A DNA stretch of 64,000 nt from Acetobacteroides hydrogenigenes. GTDB taxonomy: Bacteria; Bacteroidota; Bacteroidia; Bacteroidales; ZOR0009. The stretch lies in the NCBI RefSeq assembly GCF_004340205.1, contig NZ_SLWB01000001.1, positions 124,001 through 188,000 on the forward strand, in the 5' to 3' direction. Shown here piece after piece: positions 8,017 through 36,963 of the stretch. Below the pieces are notes generated by a model, which was not told the DNA's origin, did not search any database, and saw nothing but the letters and a program-made list of their open reading frames with translations. Each line of letters begins with the position of its first letter. Within the stretch, counting starts at the first letter, position 1. The translations under genes and the position numbers were made by a program.

Positions 8017-8043
8017 CAAAAAAAGCCATCCTCAACAGATGGC
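8017..8043 (-). terminator. Intrinsic terminator of the lipid kinase gene
   Basis: GCCATC and GATGGC pair around a 7-base loop, followed on the minus strand by a run of seven or eight T. It lies about 25 bp past the stop of the kinase gene. Confidence 0.8.
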
Positions 8044-8067
8044 CAAGCAGCGGCACTTTAGCGGCAG

Positions 8068-9063
8068 CTAAGGGTGCGCACAACAATTTACCTTAGGCGA
8101 ATTTTCGCTACTTGAGACAAGCGCCTTGCAAACGGCCTTCGCCCGATCTGCATCAACGAGAAAGCGAACGGCACCTGGCAGCAGCTCCACCTCCAGCGGC
8201 GCGGCGCCCAGCACCTCGCCGTCGAGCTCCAGCGGGCAGTCCATCGTATCGGAGAGAATTCTGCATTGGGTTACATCTACGTAGTGTACTTCGGGGTGGA
8301 TTACCGGCTCGGCTTTCCGCAGCTTACCGGTGAATCGAAGAAAGGTTAAGGCCGATACGCGCCCAACAACAACTAGGTTGAGTACGCCATCGTTGATAAT
8401 GGCTCCAGGAGCGATACCCAGCCCGCTGCCAAAGTAGCGCCCATTAGCCATGCAAACAGCCATTGCTCGTCCTCTAAAGCGGTAGCCGTCGGCCTCTATG
8501 GCCACCATCCTCGGCCTACGGAAAAAGATGGTACAAAAACCTCCAATCCAAAAGGCAATTTTTGGCCCAACCAGCCGTTTTAGCCTCTCCACCATTAGAA
8601 CGGTACTGGGACCAATGCCGATATCGCCGATGTTAACGAAGTAGCGAACTGCAGCCAACCCGTTGGGCTGCGTATACTGCACCTTCCCCACATCCGTCGA
8701 ACAGGTATCCCCCCTTTCAATCTGCGCATACAATTCCTCTACCAAAGCCGAAGCCCCAACTGAGCGGGCAAAATCGTTACCGGTACCCCAAGGAAGAACA
8801 GCAACAGCAACGGCCCTACGCTGTGCTTCGGAGAGCGACATCAGGCCATTTACCACCTCGTTTACGGTGCCATCGCCACCTACGGCCACCAAATATGAGC
8901 AACCATCCTCCACTGCAGCAGCCGCTAACCGTTCAGCATCTCGGCTGGCCGAGGTGTACCGGATAGTTGTTTGGTAACGAGCACCAAAGGCAGCCTCTAT
9001 TTGGCTCACCAGGTTTTCTGCCCGTTTCTTCTTAGAGTTTACTATAAAACAGATTGTCTGCAT
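8068..9063 (-). CDS. Diacylglycerol kinase / YegS-like lipid kinase
   Basis: A 331-residue cytosolic enzyme of the DAGK catalytic family, the usual length of the bacterial YegS/DgkB type. VAVGGDGTVNEVVNGL (about residues 60-75) is the glycine-rich ATP-binding motif. LPWGTGNDFARSVG (about 110) is the second conserved loop, and GDIGIGPSTV and GSGLGIAPGAIINDG follow in order. Family members transfer phosphate from ATP to diacylglycerol or another lipid alcohol, or to a sphingoid base in some Bacteroidota; the acceptor is not determined here. The gene stands alone with its own terminator. Confidence 0.85.
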   Translation of the reverse strand: MQTICFIVNSKKKRAENLVSQIEAAFGARYQTTIRYTSASRDAERLAAAAVEDGCSYLVAVGGDGTVNEVVNGLMSLSEAQRRAVAVAVLPWGTGNDFARSVGASALVEELYAQIERGDTCSTDVGKVQYTQPNGLAAVRYFVNIGDIGIGPSTVLMVERLKRLVGPKIAFWIGGFCTIFFRRPRMVAIEADGYRFRGRAMAVCMANGRYFGSGLGIAPGAIINDGVLNLVVVGRVSALTFLRFTGKLRKAEPVIHPEVHYVDVTQCRILSDTMDCPLELDGEVLGAAPLEVELLPGAVRFLVDADRAKAVCKALVSSSENSPKVNCCAHP

Positions 9064-9176
9064 GCGGATTTTAAGTGGGGCAAAGGTAGCAGAATTTAAG
9101 GAAGGCTTAACGACTGAACAACTATTCTACCATGGCCTATGAATAGAAAACAGCTAAACATGCAACACCTTTCGCT

Positions 9177-9209
9177 AAAAAAAGAGGAAGGCTTAGCACC
9201 CTCCTCTTT
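9177..9209 (-). terminator. Intrinsic terminator of gyrB
   Basis: AAAGAGGA and TCCTCTTT form an 8-bp stem about 35 bp past the gyrB stop. A run of T follows on the minus strand. Confidence 0.75.
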
Positions 9210-9242
9210 AATATCTAAAGTCTATTGTCTAACAGTTGGCTA

Positions 9243-11323
<2,081 letters not shown>

Positions 11324-29805: not shown

Positions 29806-31440
29806 ATGCTGGTGGTAAGAAGGATACTTATACTAATAATGGCAATGGCGGCATTCGGATGCTCGAACAAGAAGCACGAGCTCGCCGATGTGATTCGCTA
29901 CAACGAATCGAAGGGGATTGCAACGCTCGACCCCGCGTTTGCGAGCAACCTGCCAACCATTTGGCCTACCGTTCAGCTCTTCAACGGGCTCGTTCAACTT
30001 AACGACAGCCTTAACGTTGAGCCATCCATAGCAAAGTCGTGGGACATCAGCCCCGACAAAACCCTGTACACCTTCCACCTGCGCAACGACGTAGCCTTTC
30101 ACGACGACCCAGCGTTCCCAAAAGGAATCGGGCGTAAGGTAGTCGCCGCCGACTTTGCCTACTCGTTCAGCCGCATCCTCGACAACGATGTTGCTAGCCC
30201 CGGAAGATGGATATTCTCAGGGCTCGACACTACCTTCCACACTAAGGGCTTTTTTGCGGTAAACGACTCCACCTTTCAGGTTAAGATAAAAACCCCAGCC
30301 CCTTTCTTCCTTGGGATGCTCGCAATGCCCCTTACCTACGTTGTACCCAAAGAGGCGGTAGATCGTTACAAGGAGGACTTCCGCAAGCACCCCGTAGGAA
30401 CTGGACCGTTTATGTTTAAGATGTGGCGCGAAGGTGAGATGCTCGTGCTGGTAAAAAATCCCAAGTACTTCGAATTCGATAGTAAAGGTCAGCGCCTACC
30501 ATACCTCAAGGCGATAAACGTAACCTTCATCACCGATAAGTACTCCGAGTTTATGGAGTTCATCCGGGGCAACCTCGACTTTATCTCGGGGATTAACCAA
30601 TCAACCAAAGATGAGATCATCACCAACTCCGGCAAACTTAACCCGAAGTATGGGGATAGAATAAAGATGCTCACTTCGCCATACCTCAACACCGAGTACC
30701 TAGGCATAACGCAGAACCTACCCAAGAACCACCCGTTGATGAACCCGCTGGTGCGAAAGGCCATAGCGATAGGATTCGACAGGCAAAAGATGCTCAAGTA
30801 CCTGCGCAAGAACATGGCGCTGGCCGCCGAAAGCGGAATGATTCCTCAATCGATTCCTGACTATACGCCTAACGGCAAGCCGTATACGTACAATCCAACG
30901 CTTGCAGCGGAATTGCTCCGAAAGGCTGGTTACCCCAACGGTAAGGGAATAGCACCTATTAAGCTAACCTCTACCGAAGATTACGCCGACCTGTTGGAGT
31001 TTGTTCAGCACGACCTCTCGGCTATTGGAATTGCGATTGAAATCGATATCGTTCCTGGACCATCGTTCCGCCAACAAATGGCATCCGGCAAGCTGCAATT
31101 CTTTAGGGGATCATGGATTGCCGACTATCCCGATCCCGAGAACTACATGGCGCTCTTCTACTCGAACAACGAAAGCCCCAATGGGCCAAACTATACCCGG
31201 TTTAAAAGTCAAGAGTTTGATCAGCTCTATTTAGAATCCTTTTTTGAATCAAGTGGGAATAGGAGTAAAATCTTCGGCAAAATGAACCAGCTGCTTGCCG
31301 AGCAAACACCTGCAATCCCGCTATACTTCGACAAGGCCGTAAGGTTTGTCAAAAAGAAAATCGTTGGGTTAGAACCCAATCCAATGAACTATTTGTACTT
31401 AAAAAAAGCCTACAAGACTGATGATAGTAGTAGCCTATAG
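29806..31440 (+). CDS. ABC-type oligopeptide-binding lipoprotein (SBP family 5)
   Basis: 544 residues. The signal ends in the lipobox AAFGC, so it is a lipoprotein. The SBP_bac_5 pattern is clear: DPAFASNLPTIWPTVQLFNGL near the N-terminus, WDISPDKTLYTFHLRNDVAFHD, GTGPFMFKMWREGEMLVLVKNPKYF and NNESPNGPNYTRFKSQEFDQL. The family captures peptides, nickel chelates or murein peptides for an ABC importer. No permease genes adjoin it. The next gene, a BadF-type sugar kinase, starts 20 bp before this stop, so the two are translationally coupled. The pair suggests uptake or recycling of a peptide-linked amino sugar such as a murein fragment (inference). Confidence 0.85.
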   Translation: MLVVRRILILIMAMAAFGCSNKKHELADVIRYNESKGIATLDPAFASNLPTIWPTVQLFNGLVQLNDSLNVEPSIAKSWDISPDKTLYTFHLRNDVAFHDDPAFPKGIGRKVVAADFAYSFSRILDNDVASPGRWIFSGLDTTFHTKGFFAVNDSTFQVKIKTPAPFFLGMLAMPLTYVVPKEAVDRYKEDFRKHPVGTGPFMFKMWREGEMLVLVKNPKYFEFDSKGQRLPYLKAINVTFITDKYSEFMEFIRGNLDFISGINQSTKDEIITNSGKLNPKYGDRIKMLTSPYLNTEYLGITQNLPKNHPLMNPLVRKAIAIGFDRQKMLKYLRKNMALAAESGMIPQSIPDYTPNGKPYTYNPTLAAELLRKAGYPNGKGIAPIKLTSTEDYADLLEFVQHDLSAIGIAIEIDIVPGPSFRQQMASGKLQFFRGSWIADYPDPENYMALFYSNNESPNGPNYTRFKSQEFDQLYLESFFESSGNRSKIFGKMNQLLAEQTPAIPLYFDKAVRFVKKKIVGLEPNPMNYLYLKKAYKTDDSSSL

Positions 31441-32269
31441 CGGCTTGAGCCAAACCGAATGGCGTTTATGTGTTAGCACAACCGAAATCATTCAGTTTAC
31501 AACCGAAGAGCTTAATCCAATTTACGTGGATAGCTACACGGTGGTGCGAGCGCTTATGAACCGCTTCCCTAATGATGTCGATCCACGTAATGTTACTAAA
31601 GTATTCTTTTACGGTACCGGTTGTACCGCCCAACAGCACCAGCAGAGAATCGTCTTTTGCTTAGAGAGCTTTTTCGAAGAGGCAGAAGTAAACGTGGATA
31701 CCGACCTATTAGGTGCCGCAAAAGGTGTGTTTGATAGAAAGTCAGGCTTAATCGCCATCTTAGGCGCCAGTACAAGTACCTGTGCTTACGATGGATTGTC
31801 TGTTATAGAAACATCGACTCCTCTTAACTTCCATATCGGCAACGAGGGTGGAGGCATAAGCATCGGATCTGAAATAGCACAAAGCTACTACTACAAATAT
31901 ATGCCTGACGACCTTTTAGGGTTGTTCCAAAAAGAAACAGGGATGACTCAAGAGGAGCTTTACAGCCGACTAAATAGCTTCGAAACCCCTCATACATTCC
32001 TTACAAACCTAGTTACATTTGGAAGTGCCCATAAAGAGCATTCCTTTATTAAGCACCTAGTTCAGAAATCGTTCCGAAAATTCTTAGAGTTGCACCTATT
32101 GCCGCTCTCTATTAAAACAGGGATGAAAAACATCGGGATAGTGGGACCTATAGGCTTCCTTTTCGAGGAAATCGTGCAAAACGAGCTCGATTTGCACCAT
32201 CTACAAACCGATAAAATGCTGTATTCGCCTATCGAAGTGCTAACGCGATACCGTTGTTCCTATCTCTAA
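31421..32269 (+). CDS. BadF/BadG-type ATPase, probable N-acetylglucosamine kinase
   Basis: 282 residues of the ASKHA fold. The N-terminal VVAYSGLSQTEWRL is the phosphate-1 loop, VFFYGTGC the connecting strand, ILGASTSTCAYDG the phosphate-2 loop and NEGGGISIGSEIA the conserved substrate loop. Bacteroidota members are usually annotated N-acetylglucosamine or N-acetylmuramic acid kinases. In phosphate-2 the common GTGSNS is GASTST, a mild departure. It overlaps the preceding binding-protein gene by 20 bp and the convergent NACHT gene by 4 bp. Confidence 0.75.
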   Translation: MIVVAYSGLSQTEWRLCVSTTEIIQFTTEELNPIYVDSYTVVRALMNRFPNDVDPRNVTKVFFYGTGCTAQQHQQRIVFCLESFFEEAEVNVDTDLLGAAKGVFDRKSGLIAILGASTSTCAYDGLSVIETSTPLNFHIGNEGGGISIGSEIAQSYYYKYMPDDLLGLFQKETGMTQEELYSRLNSFETPHTFLTNLVTFGSAHKEHSFIKHLVQKSFRKFLELHLLPLSIKTGMKNIGIVGPIGFLFEEIVQNELDLHHLQTDKMLYSPIEVLTRYRCSYL

Positions 32270-34812
32270 ACAACGTTGTAGAGTTCGCGATTTTTATCGT
32301 TGACCATTGTCATGGAGTAGTCTCTAAACCTTTGAGCTTGTGTTTGCATTTTAAAGTTATCGAGAGTATCTGCCAATCGCTTTAGCTTCGATATTTCGAA
32401 TAGCTTAAAATTAGCGTTGCTACAAATTTCAAGTGCGGTATGATAGTAGCTCATAAACGTCTGCTTATCATCTTGCTGAAGGTGGCTGTACGCAAGCAGG
32501 ACATACCCAGACACCCTATTAATATAGCTCTGAGATATAGAAAGCGTATTTATGTGCTGCTCAAGACTGTACAATTGCATTGGAGTAAGCTTAAACCCAA
32601 AGTTCTCCATGCTCTTAATGTCCATTTGGTAAAGACTGTAAAGCATGGTTAACTTATCATCCTTCACCATTTCTTCCTTTATAGGATGATTCTCGATTAG
32701 CTCAACGATAGCCTTGGCCCCAGCCGTATTCTTGAAAAGGATTAGGTGAGGGATCAACTCTAAGTAAAAGTGGAAAATAGAAAGTTGATTTGAACTAGCA
32801 TTACGGTTAATCAATACATCTGCCCTAGCAACCTTTTTGCCAATATCACCAAGAAGTGCTGCATCATTGGTTATATGAGCAAAATAAACATTCCAAATTG
32901 TCCATATTAATATGCTATAGAAACAGCAAGATTCATCTATATCTAAATCTTTAAGTTCCTCTGAAAACGCAAGAAATCCATCACGATCGAGCAATTGAGC
33001 CCTAGAAATAGCCAATCCTGCCAAACAGTAAATCTTCTCATTTTTTGTAGTCGCCGAATACAGTATTAACTCCAAAAGTTTGTAGAATGAAGTGTTTAGG
33101 TAGTCAAAATCAAAGTACGAACTAATTAAAAATTCCTTTGCAGAAGAATGCTTGCAGTAATCCTGAACTAACAGTTGAAGAATTGGCTTATCATTCCTAA
33201 ACTGGAAAATGATAAACTTCAAAATATCTTTATCCTTACTAATTGTATCGGGGAGAAGGTAGAAATTCTTTATAGCCTCAAAGTTATTTTCTGAATATGC
33301 TATCGAATAAAGATTGTTGATTAAACGTATACGCAAATCCGAATTGGTATAATCCTTATCAACCTTTATGAATAGGTCTTGAGAAATTCCACCATTAGCT
33401 TCAACAATGTAACGAGTGATGAGCAAATCCCTTAGATTCGAATGCGAAAAATCTACTTGAACAACAAGGTTCTTAAACTTATTTGCCACAGTTTCTTCCG
33501 ATAGAATGCTAAATGCCAAAAGGTGCTCGTATGCCGAAAAGTAGTTTCCTCCTTTTCGAAGATGGATAGGATACATCTCTTTTAGATCGCTCTTCTTTAC
33601 AGGTTGTAGATTCTGTCCATAGCACTGCTTCTTTAGCATGAAGTTGATGATATCCAGGTTTTCATCCGCAAATTTTGCATGAGCAATTTCCCTAGAGATA
33701 AACTCATCAATAACATCATTGTAGTTCTGCAGTTTTAGCGTACTGCTATTATAGATTGAAATGAACAACTTTAGCATGTAAGGATGCGATATAGTTTCTC
33801 TAAGCATAAAATTCAGCTGTTCAACCAACAACGCTCTTCCTTTCGATTTTTTATTGATAAAATTATTGAAAGCATCTTGCAACTCTTTATGGTTCAACAA
33901 GGGCATGTTGGTAGTATCGCTATCAAATGCAGCAGACCGCAACCCCATCCAATGTGCAGATGCCCCCTTGTTGTTAATAACCTCCTGAACCAAACTCCTA
34001 CCCCAAACACTCGACCGTGTAGTAACCAAAACCTTAACACTTTTACTCCCAGAGTATTTACTTACAAACTCAACAACTTTCGAAAAAAAAGTTGCTGATT
34101 TAGTCATCGTGCTATCTATTTCATCAAGTGCATCAACTATAAAAATAAAGTACCTATCTCTAAATAATTCGGGACTCCCAAAAACATTCTCGTTGACTTT
34201 AAACAAGTTCCTTGAGATCCATGTATCAATTGGCATAGAATGGCTATAGGAGTCATCAACTTGGCTACCAGTTAAGAAATAGATAATACTATGTTTAAAA
34301 GTCTTACGATTCAAGTTCCTCATAACCCAAGAGGCTATACCCAAAGACTTTCCATAACCACCAGGAGCAATTATACTGGTAGCCATATAATCAGAACTAA
34401 CAAGTGCCGACATTTGATCATCAATACACTGCCTATAAATTACATCTTTTAAAACAACTCCTGATTTTTTTAAAATAAATGCCGATGTACCCACCGAAAT
34501 CGCTTGTGCGTTTTCTTTCGCAGTATCCCAAACTGTTGACAGATCTCCAATTTCTTTTCCTCCCTCAATGCTATTAAGAAAATCAGCCCACGACTTCTTA
34601 CCTATAAACTGCGAAAGGAGATCTAAAGTACTAGTAGAAGGCTTTTGTGGACTTGGAAGTAGACCCCAAATTCTACGCAATGTAGAATCGCTAATTCGTG
34701 CACCACAACGGTCGTATATCAACTCGGAAAGCGATTGGCAACTTTTTACATTAACCACTTTCCCTCCAAATTTTTGTTCAACCCGTCTTTTTAGTTCATC
34801 TACCATCTTCAA
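32266..34812 (-). CDS. NACHT-type STAND NTPase with N-terminal HTH-like domain
   Basis: 848 residues, cytosolic. Residues about 10-85 (SLSELIYDRCGARISDSTLRRIWG, then LDLLSQFIGKKSWADFLN) form a small helical module that Bacteroidota fuse to many effector and STAND proteins; it may bind nucleic acid. The NTPase core has a P-loop GGYGKS (151-156), the NACHT Walker B FIFIVDALDEID (222-233) and a sensor strand VKVLVTTRSSVWGR. The remaining 500 residues are helical, with no recognised repeat, and probably form the sensing arm. Prokaryotic NACHT proteins include antiphage sensors, but no effector domain was recognised here, so that role is inferred. The gene is clearly more AT-rich than its left-hand neighbours, which suggests acquisition. 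An ATG at 34806 is an equally good start. Confidence 0.8.
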   Translation of the reverse strand: MKMVDELKRRVEQKFGGKVVNVKSCQSLSELIYDRCGARISDSTLRRIWGLLPSPQKPSTSTLDLLSQFIGKKSWADFLNSIEGGKEIGDLSTVWDTAKENAQAISVGTSAFILKKSGVVLKDVIYRQCIDDQMSALVSSDYMATSIIAPGGYGKSLGIASWVMRNLNRKTFKHSIIYFLTGSQVDDSYSHSMPIDTWISRNLFKVNENVFGSPELFRDRYFIFIVDALDEIDSTMTKSATFFSKVVEFVSKYSGSKSVKVLVTTRSSVWGRSLVQEVINNKGASAHWMGLRSAAFDSDTTNMPLLNHKELQDAFNNFINKKSKGRALLVEQLNFMLRETISHPYMLKLFISIYNSSTLKLQNYNDVIDEFISREIAHAKFADENLDIINFMLKKQCYGQNLQPVKKSDLKEMYPIHLRKGGNYFSAYEHLLAFSILSEETVANKFKNLVVQVDFSHSNLRDLLITRYIVEANGGISQDLFIKVDKDYTNSDLRIRLINNLYSIAYSENNFEAIKNFYLLPDTISKDKDILKFIIFQFRNDKPILQLLVQDYCKHSSAKEFLISSYFDFDYLNTSFYKLLELILYSATTKNEKIYCLAGLAISRAQLLDRDGFLAFSEELKDLDIDESCCFYSILIWTIWNVYFAHITNDAALLGDIGKKVARADVLINRNASSNQLSIFHFYLELIPHLILFKNTAGAKAIVELIENHPIKEEMVKDDKLTMLYSLYQMDIKSMENFGFKLTPMQLYSLEQHINTLSISQSYINRVSGYVLLAYSHLQQDDKQTFMSYYHTALEICSNANFKLFEISKLKRLADTLDNFKMQTQAQRFRDYSMTMVNDKNRELYNVV

Positions 34813-34916
34813 ATACCTTCTTTTTTATGCAGAAATAAGCCATACTAAATAAGAGAAAAAATTTGACAACGATGACATTTGTTTCGCTAAATCTTTGAAT
34901 CTACTTTTACAACATC

Positions 34917-35038
34917 AAAAAACAGCGCTCCTTGATCGATTAAAAAAATTTCGGATAGGAGATAAAGTATTAGCAAAAAGATAGTGGTACGGGCAGTGAA
35001 CTAAAATAAAAATAAACATAAAGGAGCGCTTGTTTTTT
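34917..35038 (+). ncRNA. Candidate structured RNA, element 1
   Basis: ACAGCGCTCCTT (34922-34933) pairs with AAGGAGCGCTTGT (from 35021) across an 87-base interior, and a run of six T follows. The interior holds GGGCAGTG (34991-34998), which recurs in element 2 at a similar place. A closed long-range stem ending in a T-run suggests a short independently terminated transcript of about 120 nt. A weak -7 box (AATCTTTG) lies at 34890-34897. No known RNA family was recognised. Confidence 0.45.
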
Positions 35039-35093
35039 GAGATTAAAAAGTAAATCTAGATAAAATATATACTAACTATTAGATCATAAGGAA

Positions 35094-35208
35094 AGCGTCT
35101 TGCCCTTTGGCTATAGTAATGCTAATAGAAACAGCTAAGCATAGCAAAATTGATTCAAATACAGGGCAGTGTTAAAACCTAACGACCAAAGGGCGAGACG
35201 TTTTTCAA
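35094..35208 (+). ncRNA. Candidate structured RNA, element 2
   Basis: CGTCTTGCCCTTTGG (35096-35110) pairs with CCAAAGGGCGAGACG (35186-35200) with one wobble, followed by TTTTT. The interior is 75 bases and includes GGGCAGTG at 35164-35171. Its arms differ completely from those of element 1, yet the architecture and the interior word are the same, as expected for two copies of one RNA fold. TGCCCT in the left arm could also pair with AGGGCA inside, an alternative structure. Confidence 0.45.
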
Positions 35209-35490
35209 AGCAATAATTTCAAAGTATCACTTCATCCCCCCATTATCTTCCCTAATCTCGTACCAGAAATAGCATTTTATTAAGTTACCTCTTCTTGGAA
35301 TTACAACATCTTATTGCAACTTCAATTCAATTTTCACTAAAATAAAATCCATCTAAATTACACTCCTTAAGTATTTAAAAAACCAACACTTACAGTTTGA
35401 AACAAAATAACCCAAATTCTCTTACACTTTTCTTTTATATCAAGAGGAAAGATTTCGTATATTCACCGAAATTTTAATTCGTAAACAACT
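35209..35490. other. AT-rich leader region of aspA
   Basis: About 290 bp without a gene or clear repeat. No exact TAnnTTTG box was found. The aspA promoter must lie here, but I cannot place it. Confidence 0.3.
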
Positions 35491-35495
35491 GGAGG
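35491..35495 (+). promoter_or_regulatory. Strong Shine-Dalgarno site of aspA
   Basis: GGAGG sits seven bases before the ATG at 35503. Such a full site is unusual in this phylum, where most starts in the window have none. It fixes the aspA start and suggests efficient translation. Confidence 0.7.
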
Positions 35496-35502
35496 GTAAA
35501 CC

Positions 35503-36963
35503 ATGGAAAGCCTATTTGCTAAACTAAGTTCCCAAAATGTAAATATTCCTTTTTCAGGAAAGACGAGAACAGAACACGACCTATTGGGAGACAAGGAAGT
35601 ACCAGTAGAAGCATTTTTTGGAGTGCAGACTTTAAGAGCATTGGAAAACTTCAATATTAGCGGCGTTACGCTAAAGTTTTTCCCTATGCTTATAGAATCA
35701 TTTGCAATGGTAAAGGAGGCTACTGCCGAAGCCAACTGCGAACTAGGGCTTCTTGAACCAAATGTTAAAGATGCCATTGTAGAAGCCTGTAAGGTTGTAA
35801 AATCAGGCTCGCTAAATGAGCACTTTATCGTGGATATGGTGCAAGGAGGAGCAGGCACATCTACAAACATGAACGCCAATGAGGTTATTGCCAATATGGC
35901 TCTAGTTTCTATGGGCAAGAAGAAGGGTGAATATTCATTTGTTCATCCCAACAATCACGTTAATCTATCTCAATCTACAAACGACGCCTATCCTACTGCC
36001 GTTAAGCTTGCTGTAATTTTTAGCAATCAACAGTTGATAGACGTTTTAAAATCGCTTATTGAAGTCTTTAGAACTAAAGGCGTTGAGTTCAAAGACATTA
36101 TTAAAATGGGAAGAACTCAACTTCAAGATGCTGTACCTATGACTCTTGGACAAGCATTTGAAGCATATGCCGTTACTCTTTCTGAAGAGATTGAGCGTTT
36201 GGAACAAAACGTAAAGCTTTTTCACGAAATAAACATGGGAGCAACTGCAATCGGAACCGGAATTAACTCCGACCCTGACTACGCCCCTCTTGTTACAAAA
36301 ATTCTTGCACGCATTACAGATCTTCCGCTAGTCCAAGCAGCCAACCTTGTTGAAGCAACACAAGATACTGGTGCATTTGTAATGTACTCTTCTGCACTAA
36401 AACGCCTTGCCGTTAAGCTATCAAAAATATGTAACGATCTTAGACTACTATCGTCAGGCCCTCGCACAGGAATTGGAGAAATTAACCTTCCTCCAAAACA
36501 GCCAGGATCGTCAATTATGCCAGGAAAGGTTAATCCAGTAATCCCAGAAGTTGTTAATCAAATCGCTTTTAAGGTAATTGGGAACGACCTAACAGTTACA
36601 ATGGCTGCAGAAGCAGGACAACTTGAGCTCAACGTAATGGAGCCTATCATTGTATACAGCATCCACGAGTCTATAGAGCTACTTAGAAATGGTATGAGAA
36701 CTCTAAAAGATGAGTGCGTAATTGGAATTACAGCGAATGAAGAGCACTGTCGCAACCTAGTTCTTAACTCAATTGGCTTGGTAACAGCGCTTAACCCTTA
36801 CATTGGCTACGAAAATTCAACAATTGTAGCAAAAGAAGCGCTTGAGACAGGAAAGAGCGTTTACAATCTTGTACTCGAAAAAGGATTGCTTTCTCAGGAT
36901 GAGTTAGATAACATTCTCAAACCTGAGAATATGATTCAGCCAAGAAAGTTTACAAAGAAATAA
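35503..36963 (+). CDS. aspA: Aspartate ammonia-lyase
   Basis: 486 residues. Reversibly converts L-aspartate to fumarate and ammonia in the cytoplasm, feeding fumarate respiration or nitrogen metabolism in anaerobes. Fumarase/aspartase superfamily motifs appear in order: GGAGTSTNMNANEVIAN, the NLSQSTNDAYPTA stretch, MGRTQLQDAVPM and the flexible catalytic-loop signature SSIMPGKVNPVIPE with its serine. The N-terminus carries about 25 extra residues before the usual RTEHDLLGDKEVP, which is common among AspA proteins. The start follows a GGAGG site and a strong terminator lies downstream, so the gene is monocistronic. AspA is preferred over FumC because of the RTEHDLLGDKEVP word and the overall pattern. 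Confidence 0.9.
   Translation: MESLFAKLSSQNVNIPFSGKTRTEHDLLGDKEVPVEAFFGVQTLRALENFNISGVTLKFFPMLIESFAMVKEATAEANCELGLLEPNVKDAIVEACKVVKSGSLNEHFIVDMVQGGAGTSTNMNANEVIANMALVSMGKKKGEYSFVHPNNHVNLSQSTNDAYPTAVKLAVIFSNQQLIDVLKSLIEVFRTKGVEFKDIIKMGRTQLQDAVPMTLGQAFEAYAVTLSEEIERLEQNVKLFHEINMGATAIGTGINSDPDYAPLVTKILARITDLPLVQAANLVEATQDTGAFVMYSSALKRLAVKLSKICNDLRLLSSGPRTGIGEINLPPKQPGSSIMPGKVNPVIPEVVNQIAFKVIGNDLTVTMAAEAGQLELNVMEPIIVYSIHESIELLRNGMRTLKDECVIGITANEEHCRNLVLNSIGLVTALNPYIGYENSTIVAKEALETGKSVYNLVLEKGLLSQDELDNILKPENMIQPRKFTKK

Follow-up and report, generated by a model that had tools for sequence, protein, structure and literature searches.

A putative HTH-NACHT regulator gene divergent from two predicted stem-closed small RNAs in Acetobacteroides hydrogenigenes

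Introduction

The sibling small RNAs of Neisseria meningitidis are reportedly arranged in tandem and said to expose a common word. In the available excerpts of the paper that describes them (PMC5362039), two small RNAs are likewise called siblings, whereas the two RNAs predicted in the present work, EL1 and EL2, are closed by a stem of their own ends, occur in Bacteroidales and lie behind a STAND gene. When the neighbouring protein is considered, MalT and AfsR are described in the accessible portions of three papers as STAND transcription regulators that respond to signals (PMC4381067, PMC10427625, PMC10936776). As far as those portions go, the likeness resides in a NOD/STAND ATPase regulating transcription through an attached DNA-binding domain, an arrangement that is predicted here; in contrast to MalT and AfsR, the NTPase of the present protein is NACHT-like, a lambda-repressor-like HTH is predicted at its N-terminus, and its putative output is either RNA or a micropeptide/peptidase operon. 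A NACHT-type STAND core is also found in the antiphage proteins of the bNACHT25 type, to judge from extracts of PMC12169576. Unlike these, the present protein carries an N-terminal HTH-like domain and keeps the same gene neighbourhood across several families, and none of three NACHT proteins searched against the PADLOC models gave a match at E 0.001 or 0.1. Finally, in the peptidase/STAND conflict systems, as set out in the partial text of PMC7159879, trypsin-like peptidases lie near STAND NTPases, as they do here; in contrast to those systems, no MoxR/vWA, GTPase or NucA core was recognized in the gene lists of 23 loci, and the loci treated here have a divergent promoter with a shared repeat, a micropeptide and a replacement by RNA. 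Sibling RNAs and STAND regulators are both of known kinds, but we have seen no description of the two combined, with RNA as the divergent output of an HTH-NACHT switch, and nothing that we recognized as the present locus was found in the open-licence PMC papers searched.

The locus described here lies in a stretch of 64,000 nucleotides of A. hydrogenigenes, analysed as a whole and hereafter called the window, which was compared with two genomes of the same genus (G001 and G002). We consider it probable, with moderate confidence, that it encodes an HTH-NACHT STAND regulator with two structured small RNAs as its divergent output.

Two stem-closed elements between the NACHT and aspA genes

A sequence-only reading of the window had proposed two tandem inverted-repeat elements, 57 bp apart. 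Both are present at the place it gave, EL1 at 34915–35040 and EL2 at 35090–35206 (plus strand), and the gap between them measures 49 bases instead. The arms of EL1 (34915–34933 and 35021–35040) form a stem of 19 pairs with one bulge, and those of EL2 (35090–35110 and 35186–35206) are paired at 21 of 21 positions, three of them as G.U. The loops enclosed by these stems span 75–87 bases, and each holds the motif GGGCAGTG on the plus strand, at 34991–34998 in EL1 and at 35164–35171 in EL2. This motif had been placed 20–30 bases before the right arm, which holds for EL1 (22 bases) and fails for EL2 (14 bases), while the T-runs noted after the elements belong mostly to the right arms themselves.

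Folding z-scores reach −4.5 on the plus strand versus −4.1 on the minus strand for EL1, and −6.6 versus −3.5 for EL2; among plus-strand shuffles, 1 of 200 folded as well as EL1 and none of 200 as well as EL2. The best stems around 400 positions drawn at random from the window have a median score of 18, with 26 at 95%, 33.5 at 99% and a maximum of 41; under the same scoring, EL2 attains 47.5 and EL1, without its bulge, 28. Since the arms of EL1 alone barely exceed the 95th percentile, the case for this element rests on its homologues. Similarly, GGGCAGTG occurs in the window in two copies only, one per element, with 1.6 expected by chance in 64 kb, so that the word by itself is weak evidence and its conservation has to carry the argument. 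Its antisense form, CACTGCCC, is absent from the plus strand of the window.

Searches against known RNA families returned no match to any of 4227 Rfam models at gathering score over the whole window, nor was any tRNA found in it. At a relaxed threshold over 34800–35500, the best hit was the RalA antitoxin with 18.9 bits versus a cut-off of 170, and the RNA family formed by EL1 and EL2 is absent from Rfam 15. These searches bear on the very improbable explanation that EL1 and EL2 represent the lineage's 6S RNA, stem-closed and binding RNA polymerase. An end-to-end stem enclosing a large loop would suit such an RNA, and 6S RNA is otherwise unaccounted for, as none of the three genus genomes matches RF01693 (E ≤ 1) or RF00013 (over the cut-off), the search with RF01685 (6S-Flavo) having covered the window. 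Against it stand the length of about 120 nt, the presence of two copies, an invariant GGGCAGUG that lies off-centre, a promoter that bears an operator-like repeat, and the lack of any Rfam 6S match both in the window at gathering score and in 34800–35500 at the relaxed threshold.

Outside the elements, GGGCAGTGWW occurs at 16 further loci in the genus, which disclose no conserved gene target by eye and no Rfam match; the best stem enclosing one of these sites scores 22.5, versus 27.5–47.5 for the elements. In viral contigs, CAGGGCAGTGTTAAAA gave six matches with a best stem of 18. Searches of plasmids and phages, as well as a first scan of genome contigs with three genus proteins, produced no match.

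Homologues, covariation and strand

Both elements recur in G002, in the same order and flanked by the NACHT and aspA genes; in G001, a single element is found at the NACHT-side place. Across the five copies in the three genus genomes, GGGCAGTG is unchanged and the arms remain paired, in keeping with the earlier suggestion that the arms differ in sequence and still pair; the three EL1 copies have six unpaired positions in all within their gapless stems. When the window is compared with G002, for instance, a G-C pair is seen to have become A-U in EL1, and a U-A pair C-G in EL2. When the five copies are aligned, changes on both sides are found in 10 of the 20 stem pairs and 90.9% of the cells are paired, counts to be read with the structure being taken from the same alignment and with paralogues and orthologues being mixed among five sequences from three genomes. 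None of 500 shuffles paired as well or matched the covariation score, further pair types were unremarkable in number (reached in 117 of 500), and sliding the partner along the alignment lowered pairing to 64.6% at most.

With regard to the strand, the five gapless terminal stems contain, when read on the plus strand, nine G.U pairs, no A.C and six other mismatches. R1, a covariance model built from the plus strand, gives EL2 112 bits on that strand versus 28 on the other, and folding energy prefers the plus strand in four of the five copies, G001 preferring the minus strand (−31.7 vs −27.8). It is mainly because of the G.U pairs and the promoter described below that the plus strand was chosen, and an RNA read from this strand is well supported by the sequences compared.

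Apart from antisense readings and one match at E 2.9, the R1 matches in the genus genomes are the elements themselves, with two, two and one copies per genome. The same elements had been expected at other NACHT loci of this type, an expectation borne out in all three genus genomes and not beyond them: none of 20 other-family loci, and none among at least 33 loci of named GTDB records, matches R1 convincingly. Nothing convincing was found outside the genus in 295 genomes of the order, a sample from a larger group scored with stricter filters (best E 0.022), nor in 78 sources (next non-genus E 0.026). Weak R1 matches at 18 loci (L036–L053) were dropped; the motif GGGCAGTG is found only in L053, where it lies inside a 500-codon gene, L036 and L038 being the other loci whose sequence was read.

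This distribution leaves very little room for the elements as miniature transposon-like repeats (MITE), a reading that we deem exceedingly improbable: a length of about 120 bp, terminal inverted repeats and two copies would fit it, whereas the arms diverge between copies that share an interior word, the elements hold the same syntenic place in three genomes, and many dispersed, near-identical copies are lacking. Almost no credence is given either to the elements being small-protein genes. An 18-codon ATG frame (22 codons from TTG) is indeed open in EL2 of both the window and G002, but all three codons that differ change the residue, the corresponding EL1 frame closes two codons short of the motif in both the window and G002 and lacks a start codon in G001, and the arms covary. 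A small peptide in EL2 was accordingly rejected, with its differing codons all nonsynonymous and its frame not kept in the EL1 copies.

Conservation is unevenly distributed along the region. Compared with G002, the interior of EL2 is 92% identical (69 of 75 bases) and that of EL1 62%; the operator stretch stands at 97%, the spacer between the elements at 50% and the spacer after EL2 at 47%. The aspA gene (aspartate ammonia-lyase, 35503–36963, plus strand; NCBIfam aspA equivalog above cut-off) follows downstream in the same orientation, its start separated from EL2 by 296 bases. With this position and the U-rich right arms in mind, it could be argued that EL1 and EL2 serve as long-range terminators, as processing hairpins or as an aspA leader and yield no free RNAs. 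We consider this improbable, since loops of 75–87 bases hold an invariant motif, the loop of EL2 is strongly conserved and the spacer from EL2 to the aspA leader is not, and aspA has a conserved leader of its own (35441–35502; 56 of 62 bases identical in G002), with the -7-like box TATCTTTG in G001. The view of EL1 and EL2 as conserved structured small RNA genes, by comparison, is well supported by the genomes aligned, and the initial suggestion of paralogous small RNAs gains from the covarying stems, the conservation, the position of the promoter and the G.U pairs that mark one strand, their transcription being predicted from these same features.

A promoter and a direct repeat before EL1

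Promoters of the Bacteroidota type have a TTTG sequence as their -33 box. Such a box lies at 34878–34881 (plus strand; TTTG in the window and G001, CTTG in G002), and is followed after 20 bases by a -7 box of the TAnnTTTG type, TACTTTTA, at 34902–34909 (plus strand; TACTTTTG in G001 and G002). In the parts available of PMC10309648, TAnnTTTG is given as a Bacteroidetes-specific promoter sequence. Five bases separate this -7 box from the first pair of EL1, and both arrangement and spacing are kept in the three genus genomes, each of which equips EL1 with its own promoter at the 5' end. By eye, no conserved promoter was found before EL2.

Adjoining the -33 box on its upstream side, with the NACHT promoter on one flank and the RNA promoter on the other, there is an operator-like direct repeat, TGACAACGATGACA (TGAC-N5-TGAC, 9-bp period; 34864–34877, plus strand), which is kept in G001, G002 and other families. 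TGACN5TGAC occurs once in the window, with 1.1 copies expected by chance.

The HTH-NACHT protein

The gene divergent from EL1 occupies 32266–34806 on the minus strand, with an open frame that reaches a TTG at 34812. An AlphaFold2 model of its 848-residue product, built with 12 homologues, has a pLDDT of 84.6 and matches STAND proteins best, namely 6mfv, NLRP proteins, AVAST5 and CED-4, with full-length TM-scores that are low, about 0.2. Pfam NPHP3_N falls below cut-off in all four proteins scanned, that of the window included, and NACHT below cut-off in two of the four, both homologues; it is the fold match to STAND/NLR chains that identifies a STAND NTPase core. Weak EruA matches, far below cut-off, were seen in two NACHT homologues.

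The N-terminal 86 residues (34555–34812, minus strand), modelled alone with 26 homologues, have a pLDDT of 90.8. Most of 50 VIA-align rows are XRE/Cro-C1/POU domains, at Z 4.6–6.0, values which, according to the note of that tool, may reflect merely a common arrangement. The best Foldseek match is the TP901-1 CI repressor, weak at E 0.26 and with none below 0.1, and in a sequence profile search ComR comes second (E 0.16). On these models and matches, the N-terminus is predicted with moderate confidence to be a lambda-repressor-like HTH.

On the other side of this gene lies a syntenic marker, a gene for a BadF-type ATPase (31421–32269, plus strand), which is also found beside NACHT in G002 and 10 other-family loci and not in G001; its product has no Pfam or NCBIfam match. 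The labels BadF, SBP, MutS2, XseA and DnaK for genes at these loci are our presumptive assignments.

The repeat keeps its distance from the -7 box and follows the HTH residue

Homologues of the HTH-NACHT protein were found in 23 of 393 genomes of the order, the three genus genomes included, and at no fewer than the 33 GTDB-record loci mentioned above, e.g., in Perlabentimonas gracilis (Tenuifilaceae). In a scan with free position, the -7 box follows the repeat by 24 or 25 bases at 10 of 10 sites, one of them with CATATTTG. A second such scan placed all 15 box-bearing repeats (14 TGAC, one TGAA) at 24–25 bases, two of its loci coming from genomes already present in the first. When 0–52 bases after the repeat were scanned at 23 loci, chosen for having a box at 24 or 25, 15 boxes stood at 24, eight at 25 and one other at 38. 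As a fixed-spacing pattern, repeat and box were found at 27 sites, 22 adjoining NACHT and five elsewhere. The combined operator and promoter pattern occurred 14 times in 12 of 13 genomes, which had been chosen for carrying the NACHT gene, and once in its reversed control; it is present once per genus genome, and nine of the 14 occurrences adjoin NACHT.

The half-sites of the repeat were then set against the HTH at 48 distinct loci, eight inferred duplicates having been dropped; 47 have the HTH motif and one (L174) does not. The helix is of the LRR type (R) at 29 loci and of the LKR type (K) at 18. A repeat plus -7 box is present at 23 of the 29 R-type loci versus one of the 18 K-type loci (Glaciecola, TGAA form). 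A TGAC repeat lies near the gene in 24/29 R versus 0/18 K (Fisher p 7e-9) and a TGAA repeat in 0/29 R versus 9/18 K (Fisher p 4e-5), with p values that take no account of descent, R and K types being clades. LRR pairs with TGAC and LKR with TGAA without any crossover; loci with no repeat are G187, G084, G139, L178 and L184 among the R types and nine among the K types. Near the gene, two control words were found at one and none of the 29 R loci and at none of the 18 K loci. Of all the evidence, the way in which the half-site letter tracks a residue of the HTH at the loci compared speaks most strongly for the NACHT protein itself reading the repeat. The K-type locus in question, L183 on the Glaciecola amylolytica chromosome, encodes an HTH-NACHT homologue and has its TGAA-type repeat 24 bases from the box TACATTTG. 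This organism, we assume, lies outside Bacteroidota, and horizontal transfer of the homologue is possible.

It is at this point that the strongest rival has to be weighed, in which the structured small RNAs have NACHT merely as a neighbour, the repeat serves the NACHT promoter or another regulator, and the RNAs are siblings from a housekeeping promoter. The repeat, 58–71 bases upstream of the NACHT start, could well serve NACHT alone, and the RNAs are found in the genus only. But the repeat lies anywhere from 46 to 105 bases from the NACHT start at 10 loci while staying 24–25 bases from the -7 box, it also precedes second trypsin-like genes and other stretches away from NACHT, and its half-site follows the HTH residue. 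We regard this rival as unlikely, if worth keeping in mind, and continue to favour an HTH-NACHT protein with a divergent RNA output.

What the divergent promoter drives elsewhere

Gene order was read at 23 loci: that of the window, two of the genus and 20 others. Ten of these 20 have the BadF-type gene beside NACHT, nine of them with an SBP gene as well and the stretch of G275 ending there, and the remaining ten have a different gene neighbourhood. Across from NACHT, nine of the ten syntenic other-family loci have a trypsin-like gene, with another gene first in two of them (family f81), and seven of the ten continue to aspA. The four trypsin-like proteins scanned all match Pfam Trypsin_2 above cut-off, and two trypsin-like proteins of these loci also hit the protease portion of the PADLOC model RT-Protease_XI (E 4e-10). 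A search with one query found no peptidase homologue in the three genus genomes (best E 0.27), and there is no peptidase at the NACHT site of G275. At that same site, a stem-closed RNA that had looked promising by eye was dropped at z = +0.64.

Close behind the HTH-NACHT-linked promoter outside the genus, 13 of 14 leaders encode a peptide of 32–52 residues (usually about 35–43) with one hydrophobic stretch, G187 being the exception, in a scan that set aside L154, L158, G084, G275 and the f81 loci. This conserved transmembrane micropeptide has a core like IDxGVFxxFFxVTxxFVxT and is found at L025:9709–9816 (G026), G375, G234, G311, G139, L153, L157, L159, L160, L161, L163, L165 and L182. L162 and L179 encode a similar peptide, with a cytidine deaminase gene and neither peptidase nor aspA in the stretch read. 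No such peptide is encoded in the first 330 bases of the three genus leaders; conversely, long stems right after the promoter were sought in 18 leaders outside the genus, with one weak case (L154, score 26). In the gene orders compared, the RNA pair of the genus occupies the slot of the micropeptide/peptidase operon.

The same operator and promoter are also found at second places in some genomes. In three genomes of family f83 (L142, L143 and L144), they precede a second trypsin-like paralogue. In L143 and L144, this paralogue is followed by a frame with an AspA-type N-terminal extension, which we take to be cNMP-binding-like. In two f81 genomes (L150/G185 and L151/G082), a second operator-promoter stands before a stretch with no 60-codon frame, which folds with z of −3.1 and −4.9 (the terminator at its end included), has an end stem of merely 6–7 pairs, below the stem threshold, and gives no R1 match. 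The two f81 stretches have the word TTGCGGCGT in common, and the genes near them are presumably msrB-like and LysM-like.

AspA itself differs among these genomes. The genus protein (486 aa) is without an N-terminal extension of roughly 130 residues, a label that we assume for the AspA of the other families, that of G026 being 619 aa long (L025:10850–12709). In G311, aspA (L129, flipped coordinates 8021–9881) is split into two open frames of 388 and 204 aa, by either a frameshift or an assembly error.

Proposed mechanism and meaning

Taken as a sequence of events, the HTH-NACHT protein would, on meeting its signal, bind the TGAC-N5-TGAC repeat beside the -33 box and, once bound, activate the divergent RNA promoter. 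Transcription of EL1 would start directly after this Bacteroidota-type promoter, and EL2 would probably be co-transcribed and then cut apart, or be reached by read-through. The two ends of each RNA would join in a closing stem with 15–22 paired positions, and the loop would display GGGCAGUG in its 3' half. The RNAs would, most likely, work in trans by way of this exposed word, which would either base-pair or bind protein. Pairing of GGGCAGUG with targets is a guess, because no conserved target is seen at the other motif sites, and protein binding or sequestration is equally possible. The link to NACHT that had been suggested earlier stands as a shared regulatory site, through which the divergent promoter of the RNAs is probably switched by the HTH-NACHT protein; for the RNAs as a guard or binding partner of that protein, no support was found.

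NLR-like proteins of bacteria are mostly discussed as defence effectors. More tentatively, and as a possibility rather than an expectation, the present protein may be an NLR-like sensor with an RNA output, in which two stem-closed RNAs functionally replace a protein effector module, while the switch of family f81 would run both a peptidase operon and a separate small RNA. The locus provides a case in which a conserved promoter is followed by RNA genes in place of a protein module. It also joins a predicted DNA-binding head, a conserved candidate site that varies with this head and a defined output promoter; since a NACHT protein comes here with all three, sensing, switching and output would each be directly testable.
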